64,000 nt of DNA from Agelas oroides (taxonomy: Eukaryota; Porifera; Demospongiae; Agelasida; Agelasidae): NCBI GenBank assembly GCA_949130485.1, contig OX422184.1, positions 9,712,996 to 9,776,995 of the forward strand. Reading direction: 5' to 3'. The translations under genes were made by a program, and so were the position numbers. Within the stretch, counting starts at the first letter, position 1; every line of letters starts with the position of its first letter. Positions 8,398-61,480 of this stretch are shown here, one piece after another. The notes under the pieces were generated by a model. It searched no databases, had not been told where the DNA came from, and worked only from the letters and a program-made list of their open reading frames with translations.

Positions 8398-8572
8398 TGT
8401 AAGCTGCTATGCGGTACCTGAGGAACATTGACGTTTTCTGAAGGTATGCTTTAGTGGGTCTAACTACTGCTGCCTTCATATCCTGGTTAATGCACATTTC
8501 ATGTGCCTCATCTAGTGCTACCGAGTGGCCTCTGAAACCCCTAATGCTCACCACAAATGCTCCTGCTTGCAC
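8398..8572 (-). pseudogene. Inverted block of the composite-element protein
   Basis: About 175 bp coding on the minus strand within a plus-strand gene. Its minus frame reads VQAGAFVVSIRGFRG, HSVALDEAHEMC, VRPTKAYLQKTS and FLRYRIAAY. These belong between VLQ (ending 8397 on plus) and KNMLQQLFPTPSQ (from about 8573 on plus). Both joins are in frame if the block is read in the other orientation. The block ends carry near-inverted repeats (TGTAAGC at left, GCTTGCAC at right). VALDEAHE may hold a second catalytic acidic pair, which is inference. Confidence 0.75.
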
Positions 8573-9110
8573 AAGAATATGCTTCAGCAGCTATTTCCAA
8601 CCCCGTCACAATACGCTCAAGACCATATAACTACCACTGAACCTGAAATCACAAAGCGGGAAGACAATGTGCTAGCTATGATTAAGGAGATAGAAAATAA
8701 CAGTGTCCTACCACACAATGTTCTCTACAATCGTGGTCTACTGAATGTATTTACTGGTACTGCAGCCACACCACAGCAGGCTGATGATCTCTTAAATTAT
8801 AGGAAAATTAGGTCTGATGACTTAGTTCAGTTCATAACTTATCACATTCTCAGAAAACCCAGTACTGATGCTCCTATAAGGCGCAACAGGTTACTCACTA
8901 TGGCACCCCCTAAGATAGGGAAGCAGAGAATGTCACACAAGGAGAGGGAGTTTAAACAAGTGACAAAGTGCCTCCGTCGGTGACTAGCATGGTGCAATCG
9001 CACTGGTCAGTCATATGACCCTGCTATCGAGCAGTACTCCATGTTTCCCCGAGCTATTTCTGACGAAAATGGCTATCCTCATAAAGGAACTAAGTAATCA
9101 TGGACAGAGA
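8573..9110 (+). pseudogene. Composite-element protein, part 5
   Basis: From KNMLQQLFPTPSQYAQ the plus frame is open to a stop at 8981 and contains NRGLLNVFTGTAATPQQ, RRNRLLTMAPPKIG, and KQVTKCLRR. The next frame continues with AWCNRTGQ, EQYSMFPRAISDENG and PHKGTK up to about 9095. A frameshift at about 8980 and a stop near 9095 break it. Confidence 0.55.
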
Positions 9111-9910
9111 AACTAAGCAAACACTACAACAGTCCACACCTACCAATACTCATGAACACTCTTCCCCAGGGATTGAGTCCTCAAGCAGTAATAATTGATG
9201 GTATGTTCCTTATCAATTGCAAACCACTCAGGCACACTTCCACTGTTGCGGAGTATGCAACTCTGTTATTCAACCGCTTTATTTCCCCACATTATCAGGC
9301 CGGGGCAATAGAGGTGCACTTAGTTTTTGATACTCCCAGCAAACAGCCATTTAGCCCAAAATGTTATGAACGTAAGAGGAGAGACGAGTCTCATCCCAGT
9401 ACTAACCACAACTATCTTTCTTTTACTCCCAGCACCAAGGTTCCACAATCATGGAGATCATACATTGAGTGCCGTCAGTGTAAGCGTGCTCTTATTGAGG
9501 CTATAGGATTAGCCTAGCTATACAGTCAGCTAGGTTTCGGCTACAACAGCACCAGCGTTTTATTATTGCTGGGTGCATGTCAGACCAAACAGGTGATGTG
9601 CCATGGGTTATGTCAGGGGGAAACAGCCTACCATTACCAGATCTGAACTATCTATCAAATGCAGAGGAAGCCGACATGAGAATTTGGAGGCATGCAACAC
9701 AGACTAGTGCACAACACATTCTTGTGTACTCTCCTGATACAGATGTATACAACATAGGGGTACCAATTATTCAAGAACGACGGTTGTCTACACAATGCAT
9801 TATACAACTCAATGGTCCCCACTCTCAGGTGCTTAAATACCTCCACATCAACAACCTCACACAAGCACTGGAGGACGACCCAGATTTGGCTACTCTTCCC
9901 ATGCAACAGA
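9110..9910 (+). pseudogene. PIN/FEN-type nuclease domain of the composite element
   Basis: Motifs in order: AVIIDGMFLIN (first acidic residue of a PIN fold), VHLVFDTPS (second), FSPKCYERKRRD, CRQCKRALIEAIGLA (stop and frameshift near 9515), then FIIAGCMSDQTGDVPW, NAEEADMRIWRHA (EEAD acidic cluster) and ILVYSPDTDVYNIG (D-T-D). The spacing of D, E-E-A-D and S-P-D-T-D resembles FEN/XPG-like nucleases. After DDPDLATLP (about 9897) the expected helix-hairpin part is missing and the C-terminal segment follows directly, so I infer an internal deletion near 9905. As it stands it cannot make an active enzyme. Confidence 0.65.
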
Positions 9911-10508
9911 CACAGCAAAATCAGTGGAGGAGAGACACAAGGATTGGTATTCAGAAATCAGAAGTACTGTTAGTGATAGGATATCAAATGAGGAGGAACG
10001 AGTGCCCTCACAAACATCAATGTGGCGCCACTGGCTACGTTCATGCTGGGTGTCTGAAATGTGGAGACATGCACCAGAATCTGACATTTTTGGTGAATTA
10101 AACCCCCCAGAGCAAAGTGGATGGAAAAAAGAGGATGATGGGAGCTATGTGTTTGATTGGGATAGTCCAGAACTACAGGAACAGGTGAAAGGCACAATAG
10201 AATTTCTTACAAAGGGTTGCTCTTGCAAAAAAGGCTGCAAAACAAAGCAATGTGGGTGCCGTAAAACAGGACGGCATTGTGGTCCTGGGTGCGACTGTCA
10301 TGGCTGCACCAACCTGTTTGAAGGTACAGAGTCAGACCACCAGGATCCGGATGACCAATCTGATGCCGAAGGTGAGGAGACGGACCAGGAGGACCAGAAC
10401 TCACAATGCTCAAGTGGCTCTGAGGATGGAGAGGAGAATGGTATAGAGACAGAGATGATTACAGACACCTTTGACCAGCTAATGCTGGAACAGTTACACA
10501 TGACATAA
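9910..10508 (+). pseudogene. C-terminal CXC domain and acidic tail of the composite element
   Basis: The frame runs from about 9924 to a stop at 10506-10508. It holds VEERHKDWYSEIRSTV, RHWLRSCWVSEMW, and the cluster CSCKKGCKTKQC-G-C followed by CGPGCDCHGC. That is nine cysteines in the spacing of CXC (Tesmin/TSO1-like) DNA-binding domains. A Glu/Asp/Ser-rich tail follows. The C-terminal position fits a DNA-binding role at the transposon ends (inference). This is the last coding piece before the right TIR, about 450 bp downstream. Confidence 0.7.
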
Positions 10509-10509
10509 G

Positions 10510-11993: not shown

Positions 11994-12080
11994 CATTGTT
12001 CTAAGGTGACGCGTATACGCGTCTATCGCGTATAATGGTTATACGCGATAGACACGTATACGCGTCACCTTAGAACAATG
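11994..12080. repeat. 87-bp near-perfect palindrome rich in TACGCG
   Basis: Arms 11994-12035 and 12039-12080 (42 bp each) are reverse complements with a single mismatch around a 3-nt loop (TGG). Both arms contain GTATACGCG. A third degenerate arm copy follows at 12081-12113 (CATTATACGTGG...TACGCGTCAC). It lies between the SAP-like and SWIM-like exons, presumably in an intron. Confidence 0.9.
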
Positions 12081-12974: not shown

Positions 12975-14432
12975 TTATGGAAGAATGAGTGCCATTAGGG
13001 GGGGTGGGGGTAGTTTGAGTGACATGAGGGGTGGGAGAGGTTGTGTGTGCATGTGTGATTGGGTTGGGATATGGTGGTACTGCGGTGGTGGGGGGTGTGG
13101 TCTTTTCCTGTGGCACGTGTGTGCGTGTCGTTGGGTTGGGATGTGGTGGTATTGTGGTGGAGGATATGGTCTCATCCTGTGGTGTGCGGCTTGTTTTCGT
13201 GGGAAAGCCAGCTTGTTCCCACACTTGCCGTTTGGGTGTCGTGGGGATTGAGGGTTTGGTATCCGAACATTATTTCTTGAGGCTTTCTTCTCTCTTTTCT
13301 CCCTGAGTTGATTTCTTAATTTGTTAGCACGGTTTTCAATGGGAGTTATTTTGTTTTCAATCATCTTTGTGAGCCTTTGTTTGTCTTTGATTGAAAGGCT
13401 TGAGGCTTCTGCCTTATTAAACATGCTCTTTTTGGTCGATTCTATCTTAGATTCAATTGTATTGGCTAGGCTCTTATAATGCTCGAGTACCAAGTCTCGT
13501 AACCTGTTACCGATTTCGGTTTGGAGGGATAAGATTTCTTTCCGTAGGTTTGAGTTTTCAAAGTCTGGCACTTGGACTGGCAATTTTATCCTAAATCCTT
13601 TCGGAAAAGAGTGTTGGTTGGCCTGTATGCTTAGAAACTTGGTGTGATGTCTAACTCGTTCCTGTTTGAGCCTAAGGGCGGACAATGCTTGTCTGAGGCT
13701 TTCCAAATTTGGGGTGGGGCTTACTGAGTCTTGCGTGTGGGGACTAGTGTGCGTGTCGGTGGATCCATTGGTGGATGCTGCGGGTTCCCCATTTGTCAGG
13801 CTGACAGGCTCTTGCACTGTACCTGAATTGTCAGAAGTTGGGGTATCGGGTGGGGGAGCGCCAACACTGCTACGCACATCGTAGCTCTCATTTGTTGAGG
13901 CAAGGCTCGCATAGTTGTGTAAATTGTGTCTTCTCCTAATGCGTGGGGATCGTTGAGGGAGAGGGGGGGGTGATGGCCACTTGTTCTGGATTATGCTGGG
14001 GGTGGGGCTGAATAGTTCGATGGATCCAGATAGGGATTCTTCATGCTGGGGGCTAGTGCTATGGGAAGAGGTTAGACTGTTAGTGGGGCTAAGTGGAGGG
14101 GGAGGTGGCTGGTCCTGGGTGGAATCAGGGGTAGGGGCATGGACTGGGCTTGCGGTGGGTGTGGGGCTAAACAGTAAGGGGGAAGGGCTATGGTTGACAG
14201 ATTCTATACTACTTATACAGGGCATGCACGGGGTTACCGAGAGTGCCAGCCTAAATTGGCTGTTCGGTATCTCTTGTATGCTGCTGATGCTGTCATCCTG
14301 CGTCTGGGGGGGCTCTGACAGTATCTCCGGGGACGTAATCAGTTCCTCGGTATAGATCTCCCTGGACCGAAGTGTGTATCTCAGGCGAGTAGTATAGGTT
14401 TGCTTAGTAACAGCGTGTATGATAACTAGCAA
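12975..14432 (-). pseudogene. Penelope-like element, N-terminal half of the ORF (485 aa)
   Basis: Open for 485 codons on the minus strand. The first 230 residues are rich in Ser/Pro/Thr. Then comes ALSALRLKQERVRHHTKFLS, FPKGFRIKLPVQVPDF and LVLEHYKSLANTIESKI, a coiled region, and a basic KLRNQLREKREKK stretch. I recall the KGF-R-K-L phrase in this position upstream of the reverse transcriptase in animal Penelope-like ORFs. The last 70 residues are a Pro/His-rich repeat (PPPPQYHHIPTQ twice), and no reverse transcriptase follows. It lies directly downstream, in the minus direction, of a Penelope C-terminus (14630-15475): the partial-tandem layout typical of these elements. Confidence 0.55.
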
Positions 14433-14629
14433 CGGCGTGTATCTAGTGATAGCGTGTTTGCCATGGCAACAGCATGCTATCGTAAACTATGTAAGGCCTA
14501 AGGGATACAGATTGTGAAAGGCCTAAAGGGACTTCAAATACAAACAAAAAATAATAAGGGAGGTATACTCCAGGGAACGAACCCTGGAGGGACAACAAAA
14601 CGGGAGCAATGGCAGTAGGTGTAGGGAGG

Positions 14630-15475
14630 CTATGGGATGATATTTAGTCCGTAGGGTTCTATTGTTCTTAAGGCCTTGATCCAAGCACTTTCTCTCTTCT
14701 TCAGACTTCTTTGATCTTCTGTGCTTTCAACGGGCTGGACTTGGACGTCAGAGGGGATGTGGTGGTTCTGTTGGACATGTCTATACAGGTGAGTTTGTAC
14801 CCAGTTAGCTGGTCTTTTGGTGAACATTTCTCTCAAATGGTTTCTGAATCTATTGTGTAAGGGTTGTGTGGTCATTCCTGCATATTGTAATCTTGAGGTT
14901 GTGGTATGTACCTTTGGAGGTGCTCTTAATATAAGGTTTGGTATCGAGGGCTCTGCATGTCAAGCAGTTATTACTGCATCTTTGATTAGTGGGGGTGCAT
15001 TCAGGGCAGGCAGGGGTTCACAAAGGAGAGTGAGGTCTCGGTCAATTTTATATACGATCTTTGAGTCCTCTAGTCTTGCTCGGGTAAGCTGTTTTCTGAT
15101 GCTCTTATGGGTTCTAAAGGCTACCGTGGGTCTATTTGGGAAAAGTCTAGAAAGTAGTGGGGATTTCTCGATGAGGTGCCAGTGTTTAACAAGCAATCTT
15201 CTGAGGCGGTGTGTTGGTAAATGCGGTGAATATGTAGTAGTGAAAGTTAGGCGTTCATCTCCAGCGTGTGGTTTGCTTGCTAGAGTTTTTAGTCTGTCAG
15301 GGAATTTAATCCCTCTAATGCTCTAGTCTATGGTCTCTTGCCTATATCCTCTTTTTTTCATATTTTCGACATGCTTTTCTCCGTGCGTTTGGAATGTAGC
15401 TTCGTTTGAGTTCGTTCGGAGGTATCTAAGTAGTTCTCCTTTGATCAATATTTGCTACATTTGGGGATTACATCC
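14630..15475 (-). pseudogene. Penelope-like element, RT C-terminus and GIY-YIG nuclease
   Basis: Read on the minus strand: IKGELLRYLRTNSNEA, MKKRGYRQETID (then an in-frame TAG), RGIKFPDRLKTLASKP, LVKHWHLIEKSPLLS and NRPTVAFRTHKSIRKQL. After a frameshift comes NNCLTCRALDTKPYI, then QYAGMTTQPLHNRFRNHL and finally KKRESAWIKALRTIEPYG-L-N. The last two phrases are the GIY-YIG-like endonuclease. The catalytic RT palm (LDVSSLYT and YVDD-type motifs) lies upstream of 15475 and is missing, so this is a 5'-truncated copy. Confidence 0.75.
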
Positions 15476-18079: not shown

Positions 18080-19230
18080 TCTTGTACTGCCACAGGATCC
18101 ATTGATCGGACTTTATTCTCTTCGTGCATTCGAATCAAACAATCCAGTTTTCAGTCGCTACTTTAATTCCATCACCTGTCATTCCCCATTACTTCTTCGA
18201 ATAATCAGCCTGCGTCCTGTTAACACTGAAATGCAGGAGCGTCTGTTTGGACAAGCCAAACAAATCACAAAAGGCACATCTAATATCCAGAGCTTTTTTT
18301 GTACTGCAGTTGAAATTTGCCAGATCTTGTACGTTCCAGATTCAAAGCGCACACCCAAACTTGTCCTGTGACTACACAACCTTGTGTACCAACATGGCAA
18401 GACATGCAATGGCCTTTTTGCTCACTCAAGAAGTTGGAGATAACATGGTTTGGCTTTAGACTATTAGTGCTTCTGGATTGCTTTAGAATTTGGTAGATCA
18501 GGATCAAGGCCTTGCGATAGTCTGGGTGCATTTGTTGAGGACTGTGTGCTGCACTTGTTTGAGAATCTCCTTGCTCTCACCAGATGTTATTTTGGTTGCT
18601 TCATCTATAATGTGTTTTTATATGGCCTTTTAGGTCATGTAGTGGCTCTGTTGGAAACCCTCTTGACAAACTCAGGATAGCACAGCTTAGAACAGAACTG
18701 GAGAAGAGAGGCATCAGTAAAAAAGGGAAGAAGAAGCCTCAACTAGAAGAACTGGCAGATCTGCAAAAGGGAATCAGTAATGTACCAGCAATCCTACAAA
18801 AAACACCAGAAGCCTCACTTGCCAGTTTAACGGAAAATACGAAGTCTTGATAGAGGAGTACTTCTATGCTTCACCTTGTAGAATGAAGTCTTGGCGCTCA
18901 ACTAGTGTGGGACGATGTGCATGAAAGCAGTAGGCCAGGTCATCAAAACGTGAGCTATGAGCCTCACAACCAACACAGCAGTAGTGCCCACCAGTCTTGT
19001 TGCCAGCTTCAAATTGCATTGGTGGTCCATCTGTGTAAGTCCATAGACTGTCTGTCCCAGGGTGTAAGTCCATGGACTGTCTGTCCCAGGGGTGTAAATC
19101 CATAGACTGTCTGTCCCAGGGGTTCAAGTCTGTAGATTGTCTGTCCCAGGGTCTGCTTTGGTTGGACTGAGCCATCTCTACCAGGGTAGTAAAGCAGGAA
19201 ATGTCTGTCCCAGGGTCATTGAGCACCTAA
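18080..19230 (-). pseudogene. Scrambled transposon-family gene, minus strand with three inverted blocks
   Basis: Domain phrases of one family I recall from corals appear in minus-strand order but on mixed strands. Minus 19065-18870: MQFEAGNKTGGHYCCVGC and LVERQDFILQGEA. Plus 18655-18850: LDKLRIAQLRTELEKRG and ISNVPAILQKTP, ending in a YEVL phrase. Minus 18655-18465: EPLHDLKGHIK, ILKQVQHTVLNKCTQ and DYRKALILIYQILKQ. Plus 18296-18465: EICQILYVPDSKRTP and LHNLVYQHGKTCNG. Plus 18090-18295: SPLLLRIISLRPVNTEMQER and GQAKQITKGTSN. Known members have YEVL next to EPLHDLKGH, and TEMQER near the C-terminus. So three blocks are inverted in place. Function of the family is unknown to me beyond its association with mobile DNA. 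Confidence 0.6.
19030..19160 (-). repeat. 33-bp minisatellite, about four units
   Basis: Units read GACTGTCTGTCCCAGGG with 15-17 bp of linker. On the minus strand they encode PWDRQSMDLH repeats. A related isolated unit lies at 19200-19215 (ATGTCTGTCCCAGGG). Confidence 0.75.
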
Positions 19231-20339: not shown

Positions 20340-21365
20340 TACAGACTCTCAGGCTGTAATAGAGTCAAATGGGAGCTTCTAAAGTATGTCGTGTATGAGA
20401 ACCACAAGAAGGATTTTGTATCGGTAAAACAAGAGGGTAAGCGTGTGCATGTCCAAAAGCAACTGATGCTGAGCAACTTGAGAGAGGTGTATCGTGAGTT
20501 TCAAAGAAAAATTTCCTGATCAAAAAATTGGTTTTTCTTGCATTTCTGAAGTTTTAATGTAACTCGTTTATGGAGGACACTTACCTGCCGCGTGTTGTGT
20601 GTACTGTCTTTGGCTCTGCTCGTTGATTAACAAGGCCCAACTCGAATCTGTCTTGAGAAATAAAGCTTTATAAAAATTGACATCACGTGAAGTTAATCTA
20701 TTTTCATATGTTGTACTATCTGATCTACCAACATATCATCATTGCTTGGCAAGGATCATTTGCAACCCACCACTGCCTAGATGCTACTTGGGTGAGTGTG
20801 ATGCCTGTCCTGGTGTTGTACACACACATACAGAGTGTGTACCACTGGCTCCCGCCAAGATGCAGTGTTTAGGATTGCATGCTAAACATCAAAGAGGAGC
20901 TTATTGTTCTCCTAGATGAAATTGACATGGACCAAATTGTCTACAAGCAATGGGTTTCTACTGACAGATCAACACTTGAAACATTTTGTGTGCCACCTGA
21001 GGAATTCGTTGAGATCTGTGAAAAGTTAGAGCTCCTACGCCCACATTCTTTCATAAGGTAAACTGCTATAGTGTCGTGGTGTAGGCAATCTGAAATGATC
21101 ACATAGCTCAGGTGGCATAGCTCTCCAGAATCAACATAATAGGCAACAAAAGGGTGGAGTGTTGCCTGTGAATTATTCCAGTGGAACCCTTGGGCAGCAT
21201 CCTTGAGAATGAAGGAGTAATTTTCAGAAAAGTCAACAGTGACCAAAATTTCTCCTGGCTGCAGACTTGTTTTGGAACACTCGTAGATCCAATAACAAGA
21301 ACAGGCCGTGTTTACACTCTGTCTAAGAAACTACAACTACTTCTGAAAAGTTTCGAATTATGACA
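20340..21365 (+). pseudogene. Transposon-family gene with DFSENY motif, copy 1, with inverted block
   Basis: Plus strand, frameshifted: KYVVYENHKKDFVSVKQ, LMLSNLREVYREFQRKF and PDQKIGFS; then CNPPLPRCYLGECDACPG; then VYKQWVSTDRSTLETF and LELLRPHSFIR ending at 21058. From 21058 to 21315 the code is on the minus strand: TSLQPGEILVTVDFSENYSF, then HWNNSQATLHPFVAYY and VIISDCLHHDTIAV. The plus strand resumes with YTLSKKLQLLLKSFEL. VDFSENY resembles the first Asp motif of an RNase H-like transposase (inference). The inverted block is bounded by GTAAAC (21058) and GTTTAC (21310). A second copy of this repeat is at 50010-51210. Confidence 0.6.
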
Positions 21366-21960
21366 GCAGAGTAAGTCATGTTAACAAAAGTTTTGACATG
21401 ACTATCTCAGAATTGGACGAAACTTGGTATGCAGGTAGTACCTTTGGTTTTGTGATGCCAGACAAAATTTCAGTCCCATTCATTGTATGGTTTCCTGGTT
21501 AAGGCCAATGAAAAATACAACTTTTAAAAAAAAATTCTGCGCTGACTATTTAATTTCCTGTAACTTTGCCATTTTAAGTCGCTTTGCAAAATAAATTACA
21601 TCACCTTGCAGCTTAAAGAATGGGCTTTCACGTGGTGTATTATATGGCTTCATCCGATAAAGGTACAGAAAGACCACATTCTTTAAGCTTTGACCTCTCA
21701 AAAAGTGCTATTTTTTTTCCAGATAATTTGTGTGGATACTCTCTAGACCCTTCTCTAACAGCTTACTGTGTAATGACTAACCTGACTAAGAATTGATTGT
21801 ATTGTTCAAACTCTTGACAAAAGGCCATAATGGTGGGGAAAAATGTAGTGAACTTGACTGAAATAGCCTACATACCACTCTATACCAGTATGTATCTCCT
21901 GATCCCAATGAAGCCCCAAAATAAAATTTGTACTGCATTATTCGTTCTACAGTAGACAAA
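21366..21960. repeat. Non-coding part of repeat copy 1 (blocks X and Y)
   Basis: Block X (21366-21775; begins AGTCATGTTAACAAAAG and includes CATTCTTTAAGCTTTGACC) and block Y (21776-21955; includes TACCAGTATGTATCTCCTGA). Both recur near 50395-51210, but there Y comes first and X is in reverse orientation with about 230 bp inserted. X starts with an inverted-repeat stretch (AGTCATGT...ACATGACT). Confidence 0.75.
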
Positions 21961-22199
21961 GTAAAAAAAAAGCATAAAATTAATAGAGTTTTCTTTGGAA
22001 TGACCCAGATGGTAGTTGCAATCCAGGCAGATAGTACCTGCCTACCCTCGTTTGCATACTTCTGGCAATCAAGTGATACTAACAAGACTAAAGAAACGCC
22101 TACAGTAGGCGCCAAAAAAAGTGTTTTCGTTCAGTATAGTCTTTCGGTAAAGCAGTTGAACAGCTACTGATAAAAAGTGAGATGGATGACATCAAAACC

Positions 22200-27615: not shown

Positions 27616-27960
27616 TGTTTAGCGACATAAGGGGGAGAGGTGGGGCTAGTAATGCTTGCTTCCAAGTTGTCCATTCCAAGAGTAGCCAATGATATATTAC
27701 GCATTCTAGTTAACCCTTTAACAACGAATGACGACTATAGTCATCGAAATTCGGCCGCATGTTATCAGTTGGCGCAATCCGTTTTGAAGATAGGTTCTGC
27801 GCTAGCAGAAAGGGTGGGACAGGGGGAGGTGGGTGGGTGCACCGCTCTGGCTGACAGTGCATGGCGGCTGTTGCAGCTGGCTATAGAAAGGGCCTGGTCA
27901 GCACTGGATGGCCAATTCTTCTGCTTTCTTGTACAAACAAGCGTAGAAAACGGTGCTTTC

Positions 27961-43529: not shown

Positions 43530-43667
43530 AGGAGACCAACTGTCAGGCAAGATGATCCCTCAGTGAGTGCATGCATGGATGTCCCTACATGCACTTGTTT
43601 TCAATTGGAAAACTTTTTTGTGACTTGTTGTGCTAGGTGTGTAGTGCATGTCGATGTGTATGTGAGA

Positions 43668-45776: not shown

Positions 45777-48469
45777 GATGACGGTAATATCATGAGAGTA
45801 GTGTTTCATTGCTCATACGTAAATCACTGAAGTGGCTTTCTATACATACATTGGTCCTCAATCCTGCCAATGGGAACAGCAATGTATATAAAAGGGCAAC
45901 ATAGCTCTGCATACGTAGTTCTGTTTGGAAGTTGGAAAAGTAAAAGCTTATAATTAAATTGGTGAGTAGTGTAGCATCTGAGATAATATGCATGGTCAGT
46001 GACTTAAATGCTCATGCAGCTGTACTTATGCATAAGCTAGTGGTGTGTTATAATTACTGCCTAAAATATTTAGCCACCTGCAGGACAATTAAATTCTTTG
46101 GCAATATTATTGCATGCAATAACGTACAAGTGTCCAGATATGTCTGATCCTGGCTCGCAAGACCTGTTTGACAACTCAGCCACTGATCCGACAGTGATCA
46201 GACATGCGCAGAATCAAATTGGTGCATGCACGATGTTGAAGACGAGCACCTCATCAGCTATGACCTGTATGCATGAATCAACGAACCACATCTCCCTTAT
46301 AAAATAGGCCTAGATACTATGCAAAGTCACCCACTGCACAGGATGCGTTGGGGCCAATACCAGGCGCATGCATGCATCTGTATATGGACGTATGCAATAT
46401 ATGCACCACTCGGCAAACCATACGTATTTCCACCCAATTTACTTCACCTTCACACGTTCTCAGAGGGAGCCAGCAAGTCAATCGGCCCAAAACGTCGAGT
46501 GGAATCCTCATGCCAACGAATGAAAATCTCATTTTTAGTTTCGTGCCTCTCGAACCACCACTTTCCAGCTTCGTTTGTCATCCTTGGTTCTCCGTATACA
46601 ACAAACGATCTTTCCAGGTACAACTGCAATCTTACACTACGTACAGCTGTCCCGTTCACTGCGGCGACGCAGTTTAGCGCGCGCTATTATTTCCAGCCAA
46701 TGAAGCTGATTGATCAGGCGCTTCGTCCAGGGTGCGCGGGAAGTACAAACTGTACGCTGTGTGTACGCATGCACACGCAGCTGCATGCACGACGTCGAAC
46801 TTAAGTTTTGAAGTGACATGTGAAGTGTATAGAAGCTAGTGGAGTTGAACTGTTGATGCCCCAATACTGATTTGTTTTAGGGGGTATTCTCTGTCGACTG
46901 GCCTCTTGCAGGCTGCTCTCTTGACTGGAGACTGAAACAACCATGAGCTTCAATACTTCACTGGGTATGTTTTGACTCATGGAGTCGTGCTAGCCTGTGG
47001 GTATGTGCTCATCAGCTACGTGTAAACGTAAGCTATTGTTGCTAAGCACATGACCAGGTGTTCTATTTGTAGTACAGTTCAATAATTTTGAATGGACTAT
47101 GGGCTTCTATAGGAGTTACACGCTCTTACTCGAGCTGCCTGTTCTTAACTTCTTATGCGCTCTTGATAGTGGTAATGGTGTGGTTATGTACAACCCTGTT
47201 AACTACAGGCAACACACTGATTAGTTTTCCTCATTATGACACTTCTTTCCTAATAGACTCGAGAGGGAGAAGTACTATAGCCATTGTGTCAAGTTACGCC
47301 ACAACCCAGATGGTTACATCACAATAATAGTTGATGGGATGGACCAACAAAAAACATGCATTCCACATTTCATCAGCCAATCAATGCTATTTCATAGAAA
47401 TACTCTATGGACACTAAATGCGTGATTCTACTAGCTATACTATTTTTTTGAAATGCCACGATTATTTACACATACTCATGCTTGAGTATAGAAATGGTTG
47501 CCAGTCCACTCTTTCCACTGACCTCTATAGAACAACAGCATGCAGTTGGATACTTGGTACCTTCAGTAAATGAACCAGTGACGTTGATCGGCCAATGTGA
47601 ATGCTGATATTGTTTATCTGTGAATTAGTACACAAATATAGTTGATATTAATAGTAGCAGCACAGAGATCACTGTGGTACATGTATTTGGGATTAAGGGT
47701 GGTCGGAATTAATTGGAGGTGCATGCGTGGCCGGTTGCTAGGGTGTTGTATCTCGACAATAAAAGGAAAAGTTATGAGTCTGCCTTGTCCACAAGCCGAA
47801 CAGTAGAGGGGCCAAGTCCAGACCTATTTGTTCATAAAACTTTTGAACAGAGTAACTTACTAACCTGGAACATCGTCTACGGAGCTGTTATTACGAGAAG
47901 AACTCAATTACAGAACACTTTTCATCGTAAGACAAACAGAAGCATGCACTTCGCAGTTTTCACGAGCTTGCAGCGTATAATGCCCGGCTTTTCAGCACGT
48001 ATTTCACGAAAAACTTTCAGTTAAGGTCAAGTCCACACCCCCAGAATGTTGCAAAGCAAACTAAAGTCCAATTCCGGTGAGAGTTTTACAAAGTTATGTA
48101 AACCGCACTTAGCTGCTCTTTGAGAAGGAACCGCCTCTTGCGCAGGCGCACCAGAGGCTTCCAGTACTTAAGTGGCTTAGGGTAATTGCCCAGGTTGTTT
48201 TATGACAGCAGCTTTTTGCTAACCCTTAATAGCAATCAGCTTCGCCTCATGTTATTTAGGGCATTACTCATGTTAGGCACTTCATGAGGACTGTAGCCAT
48301 CAGGTTAGAGTCCTCAGGAAAATGACCATAACCCATGTAAACATATGCTCCATGGCCATGTATCAGTGCACCCACAATGTGCACTTTCAGCTGTTGCTTG
48401 TTGCTTGTGGCCTAAAGGAAAGCAGAATTTGTATAGATAATAGCAGAGTTTACTGTGCTATTTGGGATT

Positions 48470-49545
48470 AATTGAAAACATTGCAAAGGAAAAGGGTCAC
48501 ATGCAACCAGTTCTGTACGTCCAAATGGATAATCCTGCAGGATAGCCTGAAAGGTCTGAAACAAACCCTGGAGAAAAAGAGAACGAGGAAACTCACTTCC
48601 CTCCTCCAAGACCGCACACCGAGACAAAGGAGCAGGAGAAGATTCCACCGCATTCCTCCCACCTCCAACACACAAAGCATTGACCCTCCGAGAACCGTGG
48701 TAAACCTATCCAACACCCAGCTCTCTGAACCAGAAGTCAGCCTACTATCCAAAGGGCTTAAATATGCCCCAAAGCCCCTCAAAATCGATACCTTCCAACT
48801 CAAACAGGACCTGGACGACTTCGAGCGCAGGTTACGGTTGCGTGGATTCTTCTATGATCCTGAGATGACAGAAGAAGAAGAAGCCCCCCCAGGCCCGACG
48901 GTTCAAAGAAAAAAGTACATGGACACCCCAATGCAATCGAGACACTGCCCTTGAGACTTACATCAAGGCAGTCAGAAAGGGACATCTGGAGTCACGCCAA
49001 GAATGTCCGACGCAGGGGAGACAACCTAACGCAAGAAGACAAGCACTGAAAGAACTCCAGAGACGCACAGACATCATCATCAAACCCGCTGACAAGGGGT
49101 CTGCCACAGTAGTGATGAGCAGGGAAGCATACCTTGTTGAAGCCCACAGACAACTCATGGACCAGAATTACTACCGTCATCTCGATCAAGATCTCACTAC
49201 TTACCACACCGAACAAATAACATCTCTAGTCCGGACCATGGTGACAGACACATTTTCAAAGAGACAGGCAAATATCTCACAACAACAAACCCCAGAACAG
49301 CCAGGTTTTACCATCTACCGAAAATCCACAAGCCTGGCCACCCAGGCAGACCCATTGTCTCATCATGCGGAGCACCAACAGAGAGAATCTCGGAGTATGT
49401 CGATCACCACCTGCGAACCCTGGTCGTACAAATACCATCATACATCAAGGACACCAAGGACTTCTTACTGAAAATTTCCAATTTGGGCCCCCTACCCCCA
49501 GGCAGCATCCTGCTCACACTGGATGTCAGCTCCCTATACACTTAC
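48470..49545 (+). pseudogene. Penelope-like element, N-terminus through RT fingers
   Basis: Plus strand with at least three frameshifts: TVVNLSNTQLSEPEVSLLSK, LKYAPKPLKIDTFQLKQDL, FERRLRLRGFFYD, then DIIIKPADKGSATVVMSREA, FYHLPKIHKPGHPGRPIVSS, PSYIKDTKDFLLKISNLG and LLTLDVSSLYT at about 49540. LDVSSLYT carries the first catalytic Asp of RT. Everything after it (palm, thumb, GIY-YIG) is absent, making this complementary in extent to the C-terminal piece at 14630-15475. Confidence 0.75.
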
Positions 49546-51734: not shown

Positions 51735-51985
51735 TTTGCTTTAGGGCAATCTTGCTTTGCCTAATTTTAAAAAGGGTTTTAGTGGTCATTAATATATTCA
51801 CGAACCCAAAATTGCCACATCTACACACTCACTGTAGGTAGCGTCCTATCCACCAATGTGTCACGAATCAATCTATGCCAACGTTTGTTCAGAGCTACTC
51901 TCAAAGTCATTATCGTTGGTGTTACGCTCTGGTACCTAAGGGAGCTGAACGGTGGTTTTGTGTGGAACAGAGCCGTGAGTTGTGA
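51735..51985 (+). repeat. Dispersed repeat, copy 2 (first copy 27345-27615)
   Basis: Same order of shared phrases as at 27345, with substitutions, indels and a divergent segment after CTCTCAAAGTCA. Confidence 0.8.
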
Positions 51986-52783
51986 AACCCTCCCATAGAG
52001 AAGCGGTGAATTTTTTGAAATGTGCATTCATTTTGGTGCAGTCAAAGTTGTCCATTCCAGCACTACTCACAGCTATAACACTACAGCTACAGAACTTGAA
52101 GCCTCTGTCAACGTCAGAAAGCCAGGACAATCTTATCGACATTTGAAGTTTGTAATTAAGTTAGTTAAGATGTGGCCTGGCGGAACCCTTCATGTGGTGG
52201 TCGGAACTTTGAGATAAGCTTAGATCGATTTAAAAAATATATACATAAAAAAAAAAAAGTGTGAATCTCCATTTCTTGGCGTTCCGAAGCTCCGAGAAGG
52301 ATGATCCCTGCAATGAGCTGTCTCTTTTGAGTTCTTCACAAGTGTCCATGAGTTGATTAGTCTCATTCCCAGACTATTTTTCCAGTGATAGGATTAAGTT
52401 ATTCCAACTGGGTATATGGATAATTACCCAAGGCTACTATTCGATGACTTTTCCCTCACAGCTTCAGACTGTGCGGCTGATATTTGAGGGCGGTTTCTCA
52501 TCAATAGTCAACAGTATGCATGACATTATGAGGAGGGGGAGAGGGGGGTCACAACATCACAGTGATGTTACTTTGGGAATAAATAGTTTGTAGATGCTCC
52601 CTTAGAAGGGCCTTATGCTAATCACGTTTATGCTTCTGTCTGCATTTTACTTTCACTGGCTTGTACACTTTTAAAACCACTTGTGTGATGTGATGAGGAC
52701 ACACTTTAGCACAAAGGCACACCCAGTCACCCTGTATCAGTGCTATGAAATCCTACCAGGAGGTTTGGAGAGCCGACAAAAAT

Positions 52784-52847
52784 GGCCAGATCTGGTAAGA
52801 AGTCTCTTGTATTCATACACAAGAGACTTCTTACCACATCTGGCCAC
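52784..52847. repeat. Palindrome of about 30-bp arms at a splice-donor-like site
   Basis: TGGCCAGATCTGGTAAGAAG...CTTGTA is mirrored after about 4 nt as TACACAAGAGACTTCTTACC...CATCTGGCCA, with two mismatches. The left arm contains CTG/GTAAGAAG, a donor-like sequence at the end of an ORF (52681 on; PGGLESRQKWPDL). Confidence 0.85.
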
Positions 52848-53264
52848 TTTCAGGAGTCAATCCTTGTCCCCATCCCAGTATACCCAATAAGCTACCCTCT
52901 CTCATTTATACGTAAATTAAAACATCACTAAATCTATACGCTGCCTGGGAGGGAAATTATCACAGTAAACCCCACCTGTTGTATAGGCAAAACTATACTA
53001 GGTGGGATATATGCACTGTTAGCAGGTTGCAATACGTTTGCTGAATATTTACTTGATTAGTCTCGTGTTGTCAGACCTGGCTTAAGGCTTGACTACCTCT
53101 GTGACCTGGGCTTTGTGTTTTCTTCAACTGTGCAGATGGGAACTTTTACCTGTCGAGGAGAACACGCTGCTCCTGCCATTTGCCTTCACCAATATGCTAT
53201 GACCTTTCGTCCTGGAGGCCTATCACGTGATCCGCATGGGATTGGGCGAAAAGACAGCCTCCCA

Positions 53265-54659: not shown

Positions 54660-55830
54660 ACAATTGATATGTATGGTATTGGTATGTATGGTATTGGTAT
54701 GTGGTGGTGTAAGGTTGGTATGCTCTGAAATGACTACCCATGAAGTGTATAAAAGTTACTTAAGATGGCCTCAATTATCCCTTCGTAAGGGTGATCCGTT
54801 TCCACAGAGAATCCGAAAGCATTGAGTGAGCAGACTTCATATATCCTAGACCACATAGAAAAACAAATAGATTCATTCATTTGTTGTGCTATTTACTACT
54901 GATGGCAAAGTTCTGTCTGTGTCAAAACTTGACAAATAATTGAATTAGCTGTGTTCCCAGACATTTTGTGCAAAGTTTAGTCACAAAGCTACTACATCAG
55001 CTCGCCCCACGGTGATGAAGCATCTCACTAGTGTTTGCAAGCAAATCAATTACACACAAAAAGTTGCAAACAGAACATGCCTCAAAGGGATGTACAGCGA
55101 GAAACTAGAGGCAGATAAACAACCTAGCATCTTATTCGTATGTGCATGATTTATACAATTATGCAGTATAAGATTTGCTACATAGCTATCCGAAAGCAAA
55201 AATCCAAATTGAAACAAATTTAACTATAGCTTTTGTTGAGATGCCATATGTATGCAACCTACTAGGTTAATCGGTATAATTATACGTGTATATACTTTTA
55301 TATGTCTCACCATGCACAACCGGCAGCACTGCCATGTCATGATCACGCGCATGCGTGATACATACACAAGACTTCTCTAAAACGGCGACTGGCTTTGCTA
55401 CTAATAGTTCAAGTCCTCAAACTGTAAGTACGTGATCTGCAAAGGTTAAATGTAGAGTTAGGGATGTTAGCTGTTGGTCAAGCAGACAATGGATAAAGGG
55501 ATTGATGAACATCATAGTATGACAGAGAAGTGCAAATTGATGAACTTGTAGGTGAACTTATGGAAATGCAGAGTGAGAATCATAATTACACTGAACCACA
55601 GTATCGACTGTGGGCAAGGATGATTCAAAATGGTATCCATACCAGCAACCATTGAGGACATTGACACAATCATATATGCAGCATTTTCATTTATTGCTTA
55701 TGATGATTGTATAGGTTGGGTTAAAGATTCTGGTATATACAATATGTAATTACACAATAATCAACTCTTCTCTAAATCACCCTTGTGATCACAAATCAGT
55801 GCCAAGAATTGTGCTTTATGACTGCACTTC
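54660..55830. other. No gene recognised
   Basis: Small tandem GGTATGTATGGTATT near 54670. Around 55560-55655 a plus frame reads ELVGELMEMQSENHNYTEPQ and YRLWARMIQNGIHTSNH, which may be an N-terminal fragment of an uncharacterised mobile family; it is too short to name. Confidence 0.35.
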
Positions 55831-56030
55831 CATCTCCATGGTTTTCATGATTGTCTTGACCTTAGAAAGTGCACTTTCAGCTGGGCTCCAGTCAGGGGAG
55901 TATGGAGGAAGTGCAGAATAGCACCTGTGTCTAAAATGGCATGGCACAGTTGTCAAAAATCACCACACTGTTGGGGTTTGCCCCATCAAATGGCATTAGA
56001 TGTGAAACAAGGTACTTCATAAGTACTGAG
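55830..56030 (-). pseudogene. Tc1/IS630-like transposase C-terminal fragment
   Basis: Minus strand: MPFDGANPNSVVIFDNCAMP, then after a deletion or frameshift YSALPPYSPDWSPAESALSK and VKTIMKTMEMEVQ. The D-N-C-A and L-P-P-Y-S-P-D-x-x-P-x-E pair are the second Asp region and the last acidic residue of this superfamily. The upstream part and TIRs were not identified. Confidence 0.65.
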
Positions 56031-57443
56031 TACAGTCTCAATAACGGTTGTTCTAATGTGACCCCTACAGTCTTTTGTGCGTTGATAACAGCATAATTAT
56101 ATGGAGAAGCTGGATCAAGTAAAAGCACTGAAACATTTGCCATTGCAGTGAAGTGCAGCTGTCGAACACGAGCGACTTCAGACAATATCACAATGCGCAT
56201 ACATGCGCATGTATGCGCATGTGCCAAATGTTTGTATGTGGTGTGCGCATGGCCAGAGCGCATGCCTCTCTTTCTGTGGGGCCAGTGTCATGTTCATGTG
56301 TTTACTCCAATGTACATGTGTCAGCTATGCAATGACTTGCCTCCTTTTGCTACAATTGTGTCTTAAGGCACATAGGCGCCGTTCACTCCCTCAAAGATGG
56401 GTTTCATGTTTGATGTGGTTTTTACTCGTGCCCAAGGATGTTCATGAACTACCATGCGTTTCAACGCCACCTAAGGAAGAACCTTGGCTACTGCTTGAAA
56501 ACCTGCAGTCCCACCATCGGTGAGGAGCAACTAGGTGAGAGATGTAATACCTGTCATAGGTCTTCTATCTCCAGTTGCAACCTTTGTAATTGGATAATAC
56601 AAGCACAACGTCAAAATCAGGGGCAGGGGATGAATCAGAGTCTCTGGAGACTTATCCAGACTCTCAGTTTCATGTCAGAACTGTTGAAGGCACACACACA
56701 CCACACACACACTGAAACGATTGCTTTTTGGACAACACATTTGGCATGTGAATATGTATATGTGACCCGCTGAGCAAAAACCCGGCACTTCGCGCAAATA
56801 CAGAATTTGATTTAGAGGCAATTTTATCTGTACTTGTAGTTTTCAAGCTAAAATCAGATTATTGCACCAATGTGTTCTAGGGCCGGCTTGCACTGTGTCA
56901 TACTAAATTATAAAGCCGGGCTCTGCTTCTATAAGGGTGCTATAAGCCCGAACTCACAGACAGGTCAGTAAAGTAGTATTTATAGTATACGGGAACGCAT
57001 TGCTATGGACAGCTCGGTGCGCGCTTCACGATCACCGCGAAACGCGCGGCAAATTTAGATATTATCTATGGTGCAGGAAGATTGATCATACGCTAATATG
57101 CAGCATAGATTATCAATAACACTACCCCTGCAGATTATGAAACGGATGGTCCACTAATAGAAGACTACACAGAAAGTCTCTTGGTTGCAGCCAGAGGCGG
57201 AGACAGCTACCAAGAAGTGGGGGGGGGGACTCATGTTCTAAATGTTAAGCTGTGGGGGTGTGCAAGCATGCCCCCCCAATGAAATTTTTCCAAATTTGAC
57301 ACTTGACTTCTGAGGCCAATTTTGGGCCAAAATGCCACTAGCCTTACCTATGTGTTTGTACTTCCAAAACCAATTTTTTTTAATGACTTCAGACAACATC
57401 CAGGAAACAAAGTAAACATATGTTTTCCTTTCTTCGTGTAAGT

Positions 57444-58396
57444 TCACAAAATTAAGTATAATGAGTCTGTTAGTTCCTTATGAATATGAAGTAATAGCCA
57501 GCGATTTAGCCTTCTTTCTGTCATTGAGGAACGTAAATAAGTTAAAAGTCGTCGCAGTGCAAATGGCAGTCCAATTTGATGTTGCTCAGCAATTTGAACT
57601 GTTGCATCATAGAAGCGGTTAAATTCCTCCTCCGACCGTAGTCGATGATAATATGCCTTAGCTGCATCAACTGCAGACAGCGCATCCTGTATGGATATAT
57701 TTATTTTCTGGAGGGCCAAAAAGGGTGTGGGCAAGCCTAAGGCCAAAGAGAGTGTTGAATTTAATTTCTCTAGAGAATGCAGAAAACCACCTGCCTTCAG
57801 CCCATACTCATCGTGAGTGGTTGTTTGGATTTCCTCCAAGGTATCCATCATGAGGGGATAGTCTTTAAGAATGGCATTTATTGCTGCAGTTCGGCTGTCC
57901 ACCTAGTTGGACACAGGGGTTTTAAAGTAACTCCACCACTGCTAGCTTGTAAATTTGATGTGTCAAGAATGAAGGCCACACTACAAACTGATCATACCAC
58001 AATTCACTACCGCACCGAAGATTGTGTCCGTTTAAACTGCCTGAGCAGTATTTTGGCTGAGTCAGAATCACGGTCAAAATGGTTGCTGCTATCTGTTAAA
58101 GCAAGTGACTTTGTCAAGCTCCATTGAGCCTGTACCGAGAAAAGATGTAGTCTTTTCGGGAGAGACGAATGAGGTCAATCATTCCTCTGCAAATTTCTAA
58201 GGCATCCCTGAGACACACTAGCTTCCTTCCTGCATCTTGCAATCACAAATTTAACGAATGAGCACAACAATGCACTGGAAGTGCTGCAGGTTGCTCATTA
58301 CTAACCCTTGTCACTACTCCTGTTCTTCTACCTTGCATATTGGCAGCTCCATCGTATGCTTGCCCTCGACACATTGCTAGTGGGAGATTGCATCCG
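57444..58396 (-). pseudogene. hAT transposase, middle part
   Basis: Minus strand, C-ward: GCNLPLAMCRGQAYDGAANM, EQPAALPVHCCAHSLNL (stop near 58243 with a frameshift), then VDSRTAAINAILKDYPLMMD, EIQTTTHDEYGLKAGGFLH, LQKINISIQDALSAVDAAKA and FNRFYDATVQIAEQ. CRGQAYDGAANM...HCxAHSLNL is characteristic of ZMYM1-like hAT transposases. The W-dimerisation C-terminus is not present. Confidence 0.75.
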
Positions 58397-58585
58397 ATAA
58401 GCAGATCCGGTAACTGGCCCTGCATGGTTCGCAATCATTGCAGATGAGGCTACAGATGTTGTCAAAACTGAACAGCTGAACGTATCAATTCGCTGGGTTA
58501 GTGATGACTATGAAGTTCATGAAGACTCAATTGGGTTGTGCAGGGTGCCCGATACAAAGGCAGAAACCTTGTTTAAGTTTATCAT
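58397..58585 (+). pseudogene. Inverted hAT block with the DEATD motif
   Basis: Plus strand inside a minus-strand gene: ADPVTGPAWFAIIADEATDV, VKTEQLNVSIRWVSDDYEVH and VPDTKAETLFKFI. It belongs between VLRNLFIKMKE (minus, ending about 58587) and GCNLPLAMCRGQ (minus, from 58396). The block edges are GATAA (58397) and TTATC (58581-58585). Re-inverted, the left join stays in frame (with two stops) and the right join is in frame. Confidence 0.85.
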
Positions 58586-59024
58586 TCCTTCATTTTTATA
58601 AAAAGATTACGCAGCACACTGAGGCCTAAAATTTCAATTAGCTCATTAACCGCCTGATGGCTTGTATATCGATTTTCCCTAACCCAGCTTTTGAGTTCTT
58701 CATTTTCCTTACCCACGGAAATTGTTTGTACCACTGTGGTTGAAAATTCCTTTTCTTTGCAGAAAATGTTGCTAGTGTTCCCTTATCAGTAGGTTGAAAC
58801 GCTTTTTCAGTACTAAAACAGCATTCTGCTGTACAGTTTGAAGGTGTAGGTCTGTTCAGCTCAGGCTCCTTCTCACTTCCTGCCTCATCTTCACTTGAAT
58901 CTGTTTCTCTAGACTGAAACTCAGAGTGTCTTTCACTCTCGCTTTCTTCTCTCACTTTCTTTGTCGTCCACACACGGTGCAAAGTCGCTTGTCTTTTTGC
59001 CATGTAAATTTGGCCCTGGTCCAA
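58586..59024 (-). pseudogene. hAT transposase, N-terminal part
   Basis: Minus strand from 59024: acidic/serine-rich ESESERHSEFQSRETDSSED, KRNFQPQWYKQFPWVRK (BED/TTF-like finger start) and, in a shifted frame, SWVRENRYTSHQAVNELIEI-LG and LSVLRNLFIKMKE. The inverted DEATD block follows. Confidence 0.65.
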
Positions 59025-59756
59025 GCTGAACTTGATACCATACAGTGAAGCTTACTCTAATTAATGCTACCTGAGTAAAAGGGTAGGGCCAGAGGTTGCG
59101 CATGATTAAATTAGACGGCTTGAGAGCAAACTATACACTTAGTCCCGTGGGGTCTGGGCGAGACTACTATACGCTGTCGTGGGAGAGCCGCGGACCAAAC
59201 TAGTGGCAGTGTAGCCCAGTGTAGCCCTATAATCCTGGAAACGAGATGATATGGTATTTCTCTGTACAACTAGTAGAAAAATTTGGGGGGGGGCTGAGCC
59301 CCCCCTGCCCCCCCTATATCTCCGCCCCTGGCAGCTGCCATCGCAAGCACTGCTTCCCACCTGCAGCACAGATGAGTCCCCTTCAGGTCGTAATAGCTCC
59401 AAGCAGCTTCCACTAGCCCTTCTGTACCTGCATCCTTTTTCAAGGAACTGTTCCAGGTCACTGTCACTGATTGGTGTGGTAGTGACATGTTTGATGAACC
59501 GCTCTTTGTGGTCACAGGAGTGGAGCTGCCTGGAGGTGTGGTAGTCTGAGGAGAGCCACTTGGTACAGGCAATGGCAGGGCACGACCTTGCTGCACACTT
59601 TTTAGCAAGGAACATTATCAAGACATCTGATGGCAGTGTGCAGAACTCACCAGAGATGAGCTTGATATGGTCTTGATGGGGTAGATTATGGCAACTCTGT
59701 CAAACGATCCAGTGAATCTGTAACCTCAAGAAGAGCCTCCTATCAATTTAGCTGTC

Positions 59757-59806
59757 CTCATTCCCAGACTTCAAATTGGAAAGGAGATTGCAGGTCTGGG
59801 AATGAT
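59757..59806. mobile_element. Fold-back MITE (CATTCCCAGAC arms)
   Basis: CCTCATTCCCAGACTTCAAA ... AGGTCTGGGAATGATG: inverted arms of about 12 bp in a 50-bp unit. Confidence 0.65.
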
Positions 59807-59828
59807 GTCAAGTGTACATTTAATACAT

Positions 59829-61480
59829 ACCTATTCCATGAATGTCCTCTCACAGATCTGATGGCTACCATGGAAAAATGCCATTGAGGAGAGTTTTCTC
59901 TGTGTGGTTGTGGGCCAAAATTTTGCACTTGTCTCAGCTGTGAAGGCAAGCTTCATTGCGAATGGTCTAACCACCAGACGCCATGTCAACAGCAAGCACC
60001 TCCCACACAATGCTCTGACGTTTGAGGAGAATACAAATGTGGTGACCTTTCTCCACAATTTCGCAGAGGCCAATGCTATCCTGTTGCCTGGTCGTATCCC
60101 TGGGTACAAGAGAGATGATGTAATACTACTACCATCATGTACAAGCAAGAGGGTAACTTAACTCTGTACTTTTAAACTCAGTATCTAATGCCCCCCCCCC
60201 CCCCCCCCCCCCCACACCCCCCACACACCCCACTCCCACGCAGACACGCATAATGATGGATCAAAATTGTATCTTACAGAGTGTCTGGGTGGAGTACGCA
60301 GTGGGCTGCAAGGAGGCTGGAGTTCGTGCTGCTAAATACTCAACTTTCACAGCACTGTGGAGGCAGCTGACACCTCAGATCAAGGTTATGAAGCCAATGT
60401 CAGACCTTTGCTGGGTGTGTCAACAGAACAGCAAGGCCATTATGAAAGCAGCCAACTTGCCAGAGGTGCAAAAATCGAAAATCTGAACACTTAGTCTTAG
60501 TAATTTTTACTTAACCTCACCTGTAGCTATGCAATACACCTCCAGACTATCAACACCTGCTGGGCCATATCAAATGAAAAGTGTACTGTGTTGTTTTGCA
60601 GTGGTGGCAGAGAGGAGTATGGTGGAGGTGGTAAGAACTCATCGGGTGTGAACAGCTCATGAATCACTTTGTGTGACTTCTTGCAGAGGGAGCGGTAATA
60701 CGACCGCTCTTTGGTGGCAAGCATGTGTGCTTCAGCTGCTTAGGTCATAAGTAGTGTACAGTGGTGGTTATACCTTAACATGACTTTCATCGGATAGGTT
60801 CACTACCCTGTGATCCACAGCAACCAGGTCCTGTGTACTTTTTGACACCAGGAAAGTGTGCTATCTTCGGAGTGTGCTGCGAGGGGATACCACGACAGGT
60901 AGATGTGCTCTAAATAGAAAAAAAAAACACTTGAATCACTCTCTGCTTTATTTCTTAAGGTCAATTACCTTATTGATGAGGCTGCTGTATGCGACAGAAC
61001 TCATTGTAATTATGCTGGTGTATTTGCCTTACCTGTTCTTATTTTGACCACTACAGTTGTCTGCGTGAAGCTCCAAGTGGGCCTCTCCTAAGTTATGGGT
61101 CTGCAAAAAGTGGTGCACCATGCTAATAATGGTGTTTGCCCTCTTTCCAGTTTGTGCAGTTATTATCTTTTCCTGACAGATACATGATACAATACCTGGC
61201 CTGGTGAGTCCTTGTAGGACTGCACCGCTCCATTCTGCTTGGCTGATGGTCTCCAATTAGGGTCAGTAAGAAGTTCAATCTCCTTCTCTGTCTCATCACT
61301 GTACGTTTTAACGTATGCCTTACCAGGCTTTCTGCTGTCAAAATGAAAGTGGTGCTTGATGATATTGTGGGTGTAGTTGCGAGGTCGGCGGAGGTTAACC
61401 ATGCACAGCTTGTGGCAAGTAACCTTCCAGAAGTGGTTACACCAGCTGGTTTGTCAACTGAACGTCAGTGGCTCTTCTTG
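59829..61480 (+). pseudogene. D-x-C-x-G-Q-N family gene, scrambled by several inversions
   Basis: Domains follow plus-strand order but alternate strands. Minus 59895-59829: FFHGSHQICERTF. Plus 59905-60155: VSAVKASFIANGLTTRRHV, EANAILLPGRIPGYKRDD. Plus 60270-60480: KYSTFTALWRQLTPQIKVMK, DLCWVCQQNS. Minus 60740-60536: ATKERSYYRSLCKKS and VHFSFDMAQQV. Plus 60788-60897: VHYP, then QQPGPVYFLTPGKCAIFG and VCCEGIPRQ with an intron to VNYLIDEA (60968). Minus 61150-61029: GKRANTIISMVHHFL and LHADNCSGQNKN. Minus 61402-61230: IKHHFHFDSRKPGKAYV. Plus 61437-61480: VTPAGLSTERQW. The DNCSGQN motif is the one seen in the intact gene at 2227-4924, but this is a different subfamily. Beyond repair in any frame. 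Confidence 0.7.
60191..60213 (+). repeat. C23 homopolymer in an intron
   Basis: 23 consecutive C followed by ACACCCCCCACACACCCC. It lies between two coding blocks of the scrambled gene. Confidence 0.9.

Follow-up and report, generated by a model that had tools for sequence, protein, structure and literature searches.

In a 64,000-nucleotide stretch of the Agelas oroides genome (the window), a first-pass annotation made from the letters alone described blocks of mobile genes that lie in the right position but on the wrong strand, which raises the question of whether these are true in-place inversions and how they came about. Comparison with paralogues in the same genome established that the short in-place inversions are real, since other copies of the elements hold the blocks the other way round, and, where the flanks run colinear, a block reads as the reverse complement of the homologous sequence. 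By our count from paralogue comparison, 18 inversions occurred on the window lineage (Table 1; copies are given as in C2:11.9 Mb). The ancestral orientation of most blocks was taken from intact ORFs on C11, C4 and C7 or from two to three concordant copies; it is weakly founded for 59737-59935, where it depends on seven residues that match the C4 ORF, and the block at 59407-59583 is unpolarised.

Table 1. Inverted blocks in the window and the copies with which they were compared
Position	Event	Length	Comparison and junctions
8399-8569	In-place inversion, transposon gene	171 bp (57 codons)	Edges at protein level; DNA identity about 70%
20715-20874	Two successive inversions	Outer ~198 bp in C2:5.49, inner 105 bp	Order and strand against C2:5.49, C1:27.7, C2:10.69
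21055-21276	In-place inversion	222 bp	Reversed against C2:5.49, C1:27.7, C2:10.69 and against 73-78% copies on C1, C11
21373-21996	Inversion with nested inversion (~21764-21935)	~620 bp; nested ~170-180 bp	Copies C1:25.1, C1:27.7, C21:4.65
35018-35196	In-place inversion, LTR-retroelement copy	179 bp incl. 5 bp inverted overlap per edge	Opposite in C9, C23 (letter level) and C5 (match table); aspartyl protease domain upstream
45926-46204	Two overlapping inversions	184 then 155 bp (probable order)	Sub-block order against C2:8.503; C1:17.87 and C2:10.325 match tables give the same arrangement
47385-47563	In-place inversion	About 160-179 bp	Opposite in C1:17.87, C2:8.507, C2:10.327; C2:10.327 match abuts both sides
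48275-48472	In-place inversion	198 bp in both copies	1 bp inverted overlap; opposite in 3/3 other copies; letter level against C1:17.87, junction match 78/80
58410-58584	In-place inversion	175 bp in both copies	0 bp inverted overlap
59407-59583	Unpolarised block, reversed against C2:11.9	177 bp window, 125 bp C2:11.9	Junction fit 60/80
59737-59935	Inverted block	199 bp (C2:11.9: 195)	Junction fit 56/80
60983-61159	In-place inversion, DUF7869 transposase-like gene	177 bp	C2:11.9 copy and intact C4 ORF
61240-61418	Inversion	179 bp window, 333 bp C2:11.9	Junction fit 80/80
62479-63175	C4-element deletion derivative, three inversions (~62479-62528, 62818-63175, 62931-63029)		94-99% identity to C4, orientations mixed

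Two blocks illustrate the geometry. In a tblastn comparison with an intact ORF of 1278 aa on C11, residues 443-497 match 8236-8400 (+), residues 499-555 match 8569-8399 (-) and residues 555-871 match 8570-9514 (+). The C7 copy of the block at 58410-58584 is 98-99% identical, and in C7 an uninterrupted ORF of 262 aa spans both edges. The blocks that had been announced at 8398-8572, 21058-21315 and 58397-58585 were recovered as 8399-8569 (against the C11 ORF), 21055-21276 (by paralogues in the same genome) and 58410-58584 (against C7), the one at 35018-35196 was confirmed at its exact coordinates by C9 and C23, and within the announced region 59829-61402 paralogues bear out the inverted blocks 59737-59935, 60983-61159 and 61240-61418. 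The flips at 20715-20874, 21373-21996 with the nested one at ~21764-21935, 45926-46204, 47385-47563, 48275-48472 and 62479-63175 are additional to that annotation. For 18090-18850 and 41840-42132, which it had also named, genome DNA searches gave no paralogue among the matches listed; a Pfam search of ten stop-free ORF pieces from 18 and 41-42 kb returned one domain above the cut-off (SAP, 18611-18847). An Rfam search at gathering thresholds gave no match. The window's strand arrangement was absent from the intact homologues that were checked for it.

An automatic detector of in-place inversions gave seven matches in 63 loci, corresponding to six distinct events (21783-21933 was counted in two copies), and none when the same 63 loci were shuffled once each, so that chance strand matches are rejected as an explanation. 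The affected sequences comprise a retroelement, DNA transposons and non-coding repeats, the flips sit in decayed element copies, and the block orders examined are attainable through few successive inversions.

The number of inversions was set against point mutation in three families. On the window branch there are 6 inversions per 35 substitutions, a figure that is not a genome rate since the window was picked for its flips, and in the compared copies of the same families there are 0 inversions per 78 substitutions. At the window locus, inversions are of the same order as substitutions. In this tally one of the three blocks of the 21.4-21.9 kb repeat dropped out (no C21 match), and a run with four copies of the blocks at 20.4-21.1 kb, in which 8 columns were unassigned, does not enter the totals.

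With a strict detector, 537 aligned pairs yielded six in-place triples, all of them in pairs that contain the window, a result that counts against a genome-wide process. Besides the query, 37 listed copies of a 610-bp repeat are continuous in one piece, and of 33 copies listed for the repeat at 39988-40565, 32 keep one strand throughout, C2:8.08 Mb being the exception; each list is limited to the 40 top-scoring candidates, which favours intact copies. Two comparisons over about 2 kb, of C1:27.7 with C2:5.49 and of C11 with C15, were free of strand changes. Elsewhere in the genome strand changes, most of them matched at a single edge, were seen at C1:28.53, between C1:0.82 and C11 (an inverted stretch of 1 kb with an overlap of 15 bp) and between C9:8.25 and C2:19.3. 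Comparison of C6:2.96 Mb with the window additionally revealed possible, unpolarised flips of ~162 bp at 51910-52071 and ~108 bp at 52147-52254.

The lengths of the inversions are clustered. In a list typed by hand, 13 of 22 inversions measure 150-200 bp, where two smooth laws lead to an expected share of 7.8% or 11.6%; the other nine span 50 to 950 bp. In this list the nested lengths presuppose an order and three values (620, 950 and 50) are approximate; the choice of the eight lengths regarded as clean is ours, and the entries C2:10.325 (160 bp) and C2:8.08 (76 bp) have a single matched edge each. All six distinct automatic events measure about 168-198 bp, and both sets thus peak near one nucleosome repeat. 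Flips are moreover neighboured by deletions of similar size: one example, of 172/174 bp, adjoins 35018-35196, and among 18 distinct indels 4 measure 157-179 bp, 3 about 380 bp and 11 other sizes.

The homology at the edges is short. Nine fitted events, two of them with poor junction fits, have inverted overlaps of 5, 0, 3, 1, 0, 2, 4, 1 and 5 bp (mean 2.3), compared with a mean of 0.70 bp in position controls (P about 1e-4). Of three repeat pairs that had been placed exactly at block edges, AGTGAG/CTCACT at 35018 contains the true inverted overlap of 5 bp; the other two did not hold, as the true edges at 58410-58584 have 0 bp and TTATC of the pair GATAA/TTATC needs a base absent from the C7 copy, and GTAAAC/GTTTAC was not located at both edges of 21055-21276.

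The best explanation, to which we give about an even chance, is that paired nearby breaks release a nucleosome-sized fragment that is rejoined backwards by end joining. Pairs of double-strand breaks would hit this region of the genome, and the freed fragment would most often be of about one nucleosome repeat; rejoined backwards it would leave an inversion, and lost, a deletion. End joining with 0-5 bp of chance homology would seal the junctions, and repetition over time would produce in-place, nested and overlapping inversions in any sequence present. This model is based on clean products with equal block length in both copies (e.g. 48275-48472 and 58410-58584), the length cluster, the short inverted overlaps, the similar-sized deletions alongside and the several kinds of sequence affected. 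The block size suggests the nucleosome as the ruler, a candidate source of the breaks is a nuclease that cuts between nucleosomes, and the two-break origin, the end joining and an occurrence in the germline are what we infer from these patterns. Germline circular DNA offers a parallel that is confined to size and joining: according to the available part of PMC10581685 it arises in germline cells from oligonucleosomal fragments of ~180 and 360 bp joined by short microhomology; there the fragment is excised as a circle, whereas in the window it remains in the chromosome, reversed.

Fold-back template switching, in which the polymerase during replication takes the opposite strand as template between two short inverted repeats and then goes back, so that an inverted block remains, is unlikely, although the inverted homology above chance and its occurrence in apes (PMC8755829; PMC7954356; both as far as available) speak for it. 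In the available part of PMC8755829, the human-chimpanzee microinversions number 59 definite cases, 17-33 nt long and each with inverted repeats of 3-75 nt; substitutions outnumber them by five orders of magnitude (a ratio of about one per 10^5, for 17-33 bp only). They are like the window flips in that a short block becomes its reverse complement between matching flanks, but the window blocks are mostly 170-200 bp long with 0-5 bp of homology, and their frequency at this locus is of the order of substitutions. In 4/9 fitted events the inverted overlap is 0-1 bp, and likewise 4/9, not all, reach the 3 bp of the ape cases; the authors of the ape study, in the same available part, doubt two switches within 3-4 nt. 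Short-range template switches in great apes resemble the window in that local inverted copying can yield in-place inversions (PMC7954356, available part), but that set of over 4000 is mostly below 15 nt according to PMC8755829, and the window blocks are far longer.

Local shattering, in one episode or a few with many simultaneous breaks and small fragments rejoined in mixed order, would agree with the density of flips at 45.9-48.5 and 59.4-63.2 kb, the joint occurrence of flips and deletions and the few window-specific substitutions near flips. We consider this quite improbable, as the flips are scattered across 55 kb in separate elements, nested events require sequential steps, and parsimony dates one inversion to before the window and C2:11.9 copies diverged. 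Aborted gap repair following the excision of a transposon, which leaves internally deleted, scrambled copies and is discussed for DNA transposons in the literature as far as available, fits the 62.5-63.2 kb piece, an internally deleted and rearranged relative of the C4 element; it is very improbable, since the LTR-retroelement copy was hit too and many blocks were flipped cleanly in place at the cost of little or no sequence. A library or assembly artefact has still less to recommend it: the junctions are known from assembled sequence and few substitutions accompany the window-specific flips, but the flipped state recurs elsewhere (at C2:8.68, compared with the window, C8 and C1, and at C2:8.16, compared with the window and C6), C2:11.76 and C2:9.33 have an inverted terminal segment in common, the junctions are base-exact and the lengths are clustered. 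The event at C2:8.16 adjoins a short tandem repeat. Inversion of a programmed or site-specific kind, like that of scrambled ciliate genes or of invertase switches, could explain the local density and the precise edges but is hardly credible, as the inverted homology of 0-5 bp is variable and unlike ciliate pointers, inspection by eye of 14 printed blocks found no common edge motif such as an invertase would use, and the blocks sit in decayed copies.

In ciliate gene scrambling, coding blocks occur in mixed orientation, and so they do in the window; the differences are that no pointer repeats were found here, that the elements are decayed mobile ones, and that their orders can be attained via successive inversions. 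For these reasons the ciliate and pointer half of the first-pass interpretation is unsupported, whereas its number of flips, their in-place geometry and their excess have support, and an error-prone repair habit is its better-supported half.

Beyond the two-break explanation, we tentatively propose, with rather more doubt, a separate heritable process that would flip or drop fragments of single-nucleosome length in place at a rate like that of point mutation in part of the genome, so that silent DNA would be scrambled in chromatin units. A literature search, mostly at the level of titles and with subscription papers largely outside it, brought up no earlier description that we recognised of frequent or nucleosome-sized in-place inversions. 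Small inversions are usually regarded as very rare and difficult to detect. As a caution, flipped blocks are overlooked when the decayed mobile elements of such genomes are annotated at protein level. A locus at which inversions come near to substitutions in rate, and of which close, unflipped copies exist elsewhere in the genome, would make the break-and-rejoin step readable from sequence, and it would make testable whether chromatin units fix the size of heritable rearrangements.

Eight pieces of the window were searched at the DNA level against its own genome (assembly G000, a eukaryote, 259.3 Mb in 141 contigs, where the window occupies C2:9712996-9776995), covering everything beyond bases 1-7699, and letter-level comparison was carried out for part of the copies found, these copies being the best-scoring matches listed. 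Every confirmed site had a paralogue with the block in the opposite orientation between matching flanks, which bears out for these sites the first-pass annotation that coding blocks of mobile genes lie in place on the wrong strand. The five sites given a junction match in the table are the cleanest. An automatic detector of two-edged in-place flips between homologous loci gave seven hits, six of them distinct, in 63 loci, and 0 hits in the same loci after shuffling; a strict detector found no flips in aligned pairs not including the window. Polarity was assigned from uninterrupted open reading frames (ORFs) and from agreement among copies (table; C1, C2 etc. are contigs, and C2:8.68 is a copy near 8.68 Mb on C2). 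By this count 18 inversions were assigned to the window lineage; the unpolarised blocks 59407-59583, 51910-52071 and 52147-52254 do not count among them.

Inverted blocks, their fit at the junctions and the evidence for their polarity
Window position	Block length	Junction match	Evidence for polarity
8399-8569			57 wrong-strand codons between residues 497 and 555 of uninterrupted 1278-aa C11 ORF
14125-14318	194 and 195 bp	75/80	C2:8.68 Mb copy flipped; window unflipped because colinear with copies on C1 and at C8:5722144-5724059
20.4-22.0 kb			Copies on C1, C2 and C21 concordant on orientation
35018-35196	179 bp, equal in both copies	66/80	C9 and C23 concordant by letters, C5 in search table
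47385-47563			Three other copies unanimous against window
48275-48472	198 bp, equal in both copies	78/80	Three other copies unanimous against window
58410-58584	175 bp, equal in both copies	76/80	Both edges crossed by uninterrupted 262-aa ORF in C7 copy
59737-61418			Segment order from uninterrupted 551-aa C4 ORF (DUF7869)
59737-59935			Depends on seven-residue match
60983-61159	177 bp vs 176-177 bp in other copy	67/80	Against C4 ORF, correct order kept in C2:11.9 copy and lost in window

Inversions were set against substitutions in three families, namely those with letters in several copies. Window-only substitutions numbered 8, 6 and 21 and inversions on the window branch 3, 2 and 1, respectively; the compared copies of the same families had 78 unique substitutions and 0 inversions. 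Equal inversion rates for the window and the compared copies would give this outcome with a chance of about 9e-4. One of the repeats has two further copies outside the rate comparison, C2:11.76 and C2:9.33, and these have an inverted terminal segment in common, and the window figures are not a genome rate because the window was chosen for its flips. For apes, PMC8755829 puts definite microinversions five orders of magnitude below substitutions, a count limited to events of 17-33 nt, with more than 4000 in a laxer set.

Some events were nested. At 45926-46204, the order of three sub-blocks in the C2:8.503 copy is converted to that of the window by inversions of 184 bp and 155 bp. At 61240-61418, a single gene segment is inverted in the C2:11.9 copy, and the window has this segment plus its neighbour reversed as one; by parsimony only, since the base-level junction is lost from the window, the first inversion predates the split of the two copies. 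Assembly error as the source of the strand switches is countered by these nested and shared events and by flips outside the window, at C2:8.68 and C2:8.16. In an uneven sample of the genome, clearly derived flips beyond the window were seen on C2 at 8-12 Mb.

Further features were recorded. The element at 12978-15445 has many genome-wide copies at 96-99% identity, and three copies on C1 with 4306-bp spacing (19.816-19.826 Mb) suggest a tandem array. An insertion of about 2.1 kb (57192-59330), with a further copy on C7, interrupts sequence continuous at C2:11.908 Mb, and its flanks overlap by 5 bp, as in target duplication. The adjacent 55000-57191 is colinear with C2:11908262-11912862 without flips, the latter having about 180-860 bp of extra sequence at six or more places. 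A 610-bp repeat (C1:27708634-27709242) with terminal inverted repeats of about 120 bp and at least 37 other copies is inserted at a site matching window 21431-21438, with an 8-bp flank overlap. The window also contains an 81-bp tandem repeat (6977-7615), a 240-bp tandem duplication of 99.6% identity (43050-43530), an ORF piece with a SAP domain (18611-18847) and near-palindromes of 72-107 bp, 81-94% self-complementary (11994-12080, 27959-28057, 37903-37985, 52779-52850 and 62523-62601). On C141 (13976-16550), COX1 matches in two halves about 1.2 kb apart with TGA in frame; a 397-aa ORF between them looks LAGLIDADG-like by eye and an ND1-like frame follows, a layout which we take to fit a demosponge mitochondrion. 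A second COX1-like match (C107:16176-16808), its frame without TGA, possibly comes from an associated microbe.

Block lengths of the six automatic events were about 168-198 bp, the 35018 event having a 168-bp fitted core with 5 bp of inverted overlap on each side; for 21764-21935 the detector gave a 151-bp core and the length was set by hand to 170-180 bp. In the list compiled by hand, 13 of the 22 inversions measured 150-200 bp, the remainder being 50, 76, 99, 105, 222, 333, 534, 620 and 950 bp. The share expected between 150 and 200 bp is 7.8% if lengths are log-uniform over 25-1000 bp (P ~1e-9) and 11.6% if they are exponentially distributed (P ~1e-7). The same alignments contain 18 distinct indels, four of them 157-179 bp, three about 380 bp (one being 420 bp in another copy) and 11 of other sizes, which is no more than a lead.

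Inverted overlaps at the edges of nine fitted events, including the two poor fits 59407 (60/80) and 59737 (56/80), were 5, 0, 3, 1, 0, 2, 4, 1 and 5 bp, with a mean of 2.3 bp vs 0.70 bp at random positions of same-length blocks (P ~1e-4). Judged by sequence, they are short homology as in end joining. In contrast to these 0-5 bp, each of 59 ape microinversion cases had inverted repeats of 3-75 nt according to PMC8755829. No shared motif was visible by eye at the printed block edges.

Two breaks followed by rejoining of the fragment in reverse would account for the lossless in-place products, the short homology, the mixed families, the nesting and the nearby deletions. Because block sizes peak close to the length of one nucleosome repeat, the cuts may fall on either side of a nucleosome, and a nuclease, replication or damage would be candidate sources of the breaks. 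Circular DNA of about 180 and 360 bp that forms in the germline from oligonucleosomal fragments (PMC10581685) offers the nearest parallel.
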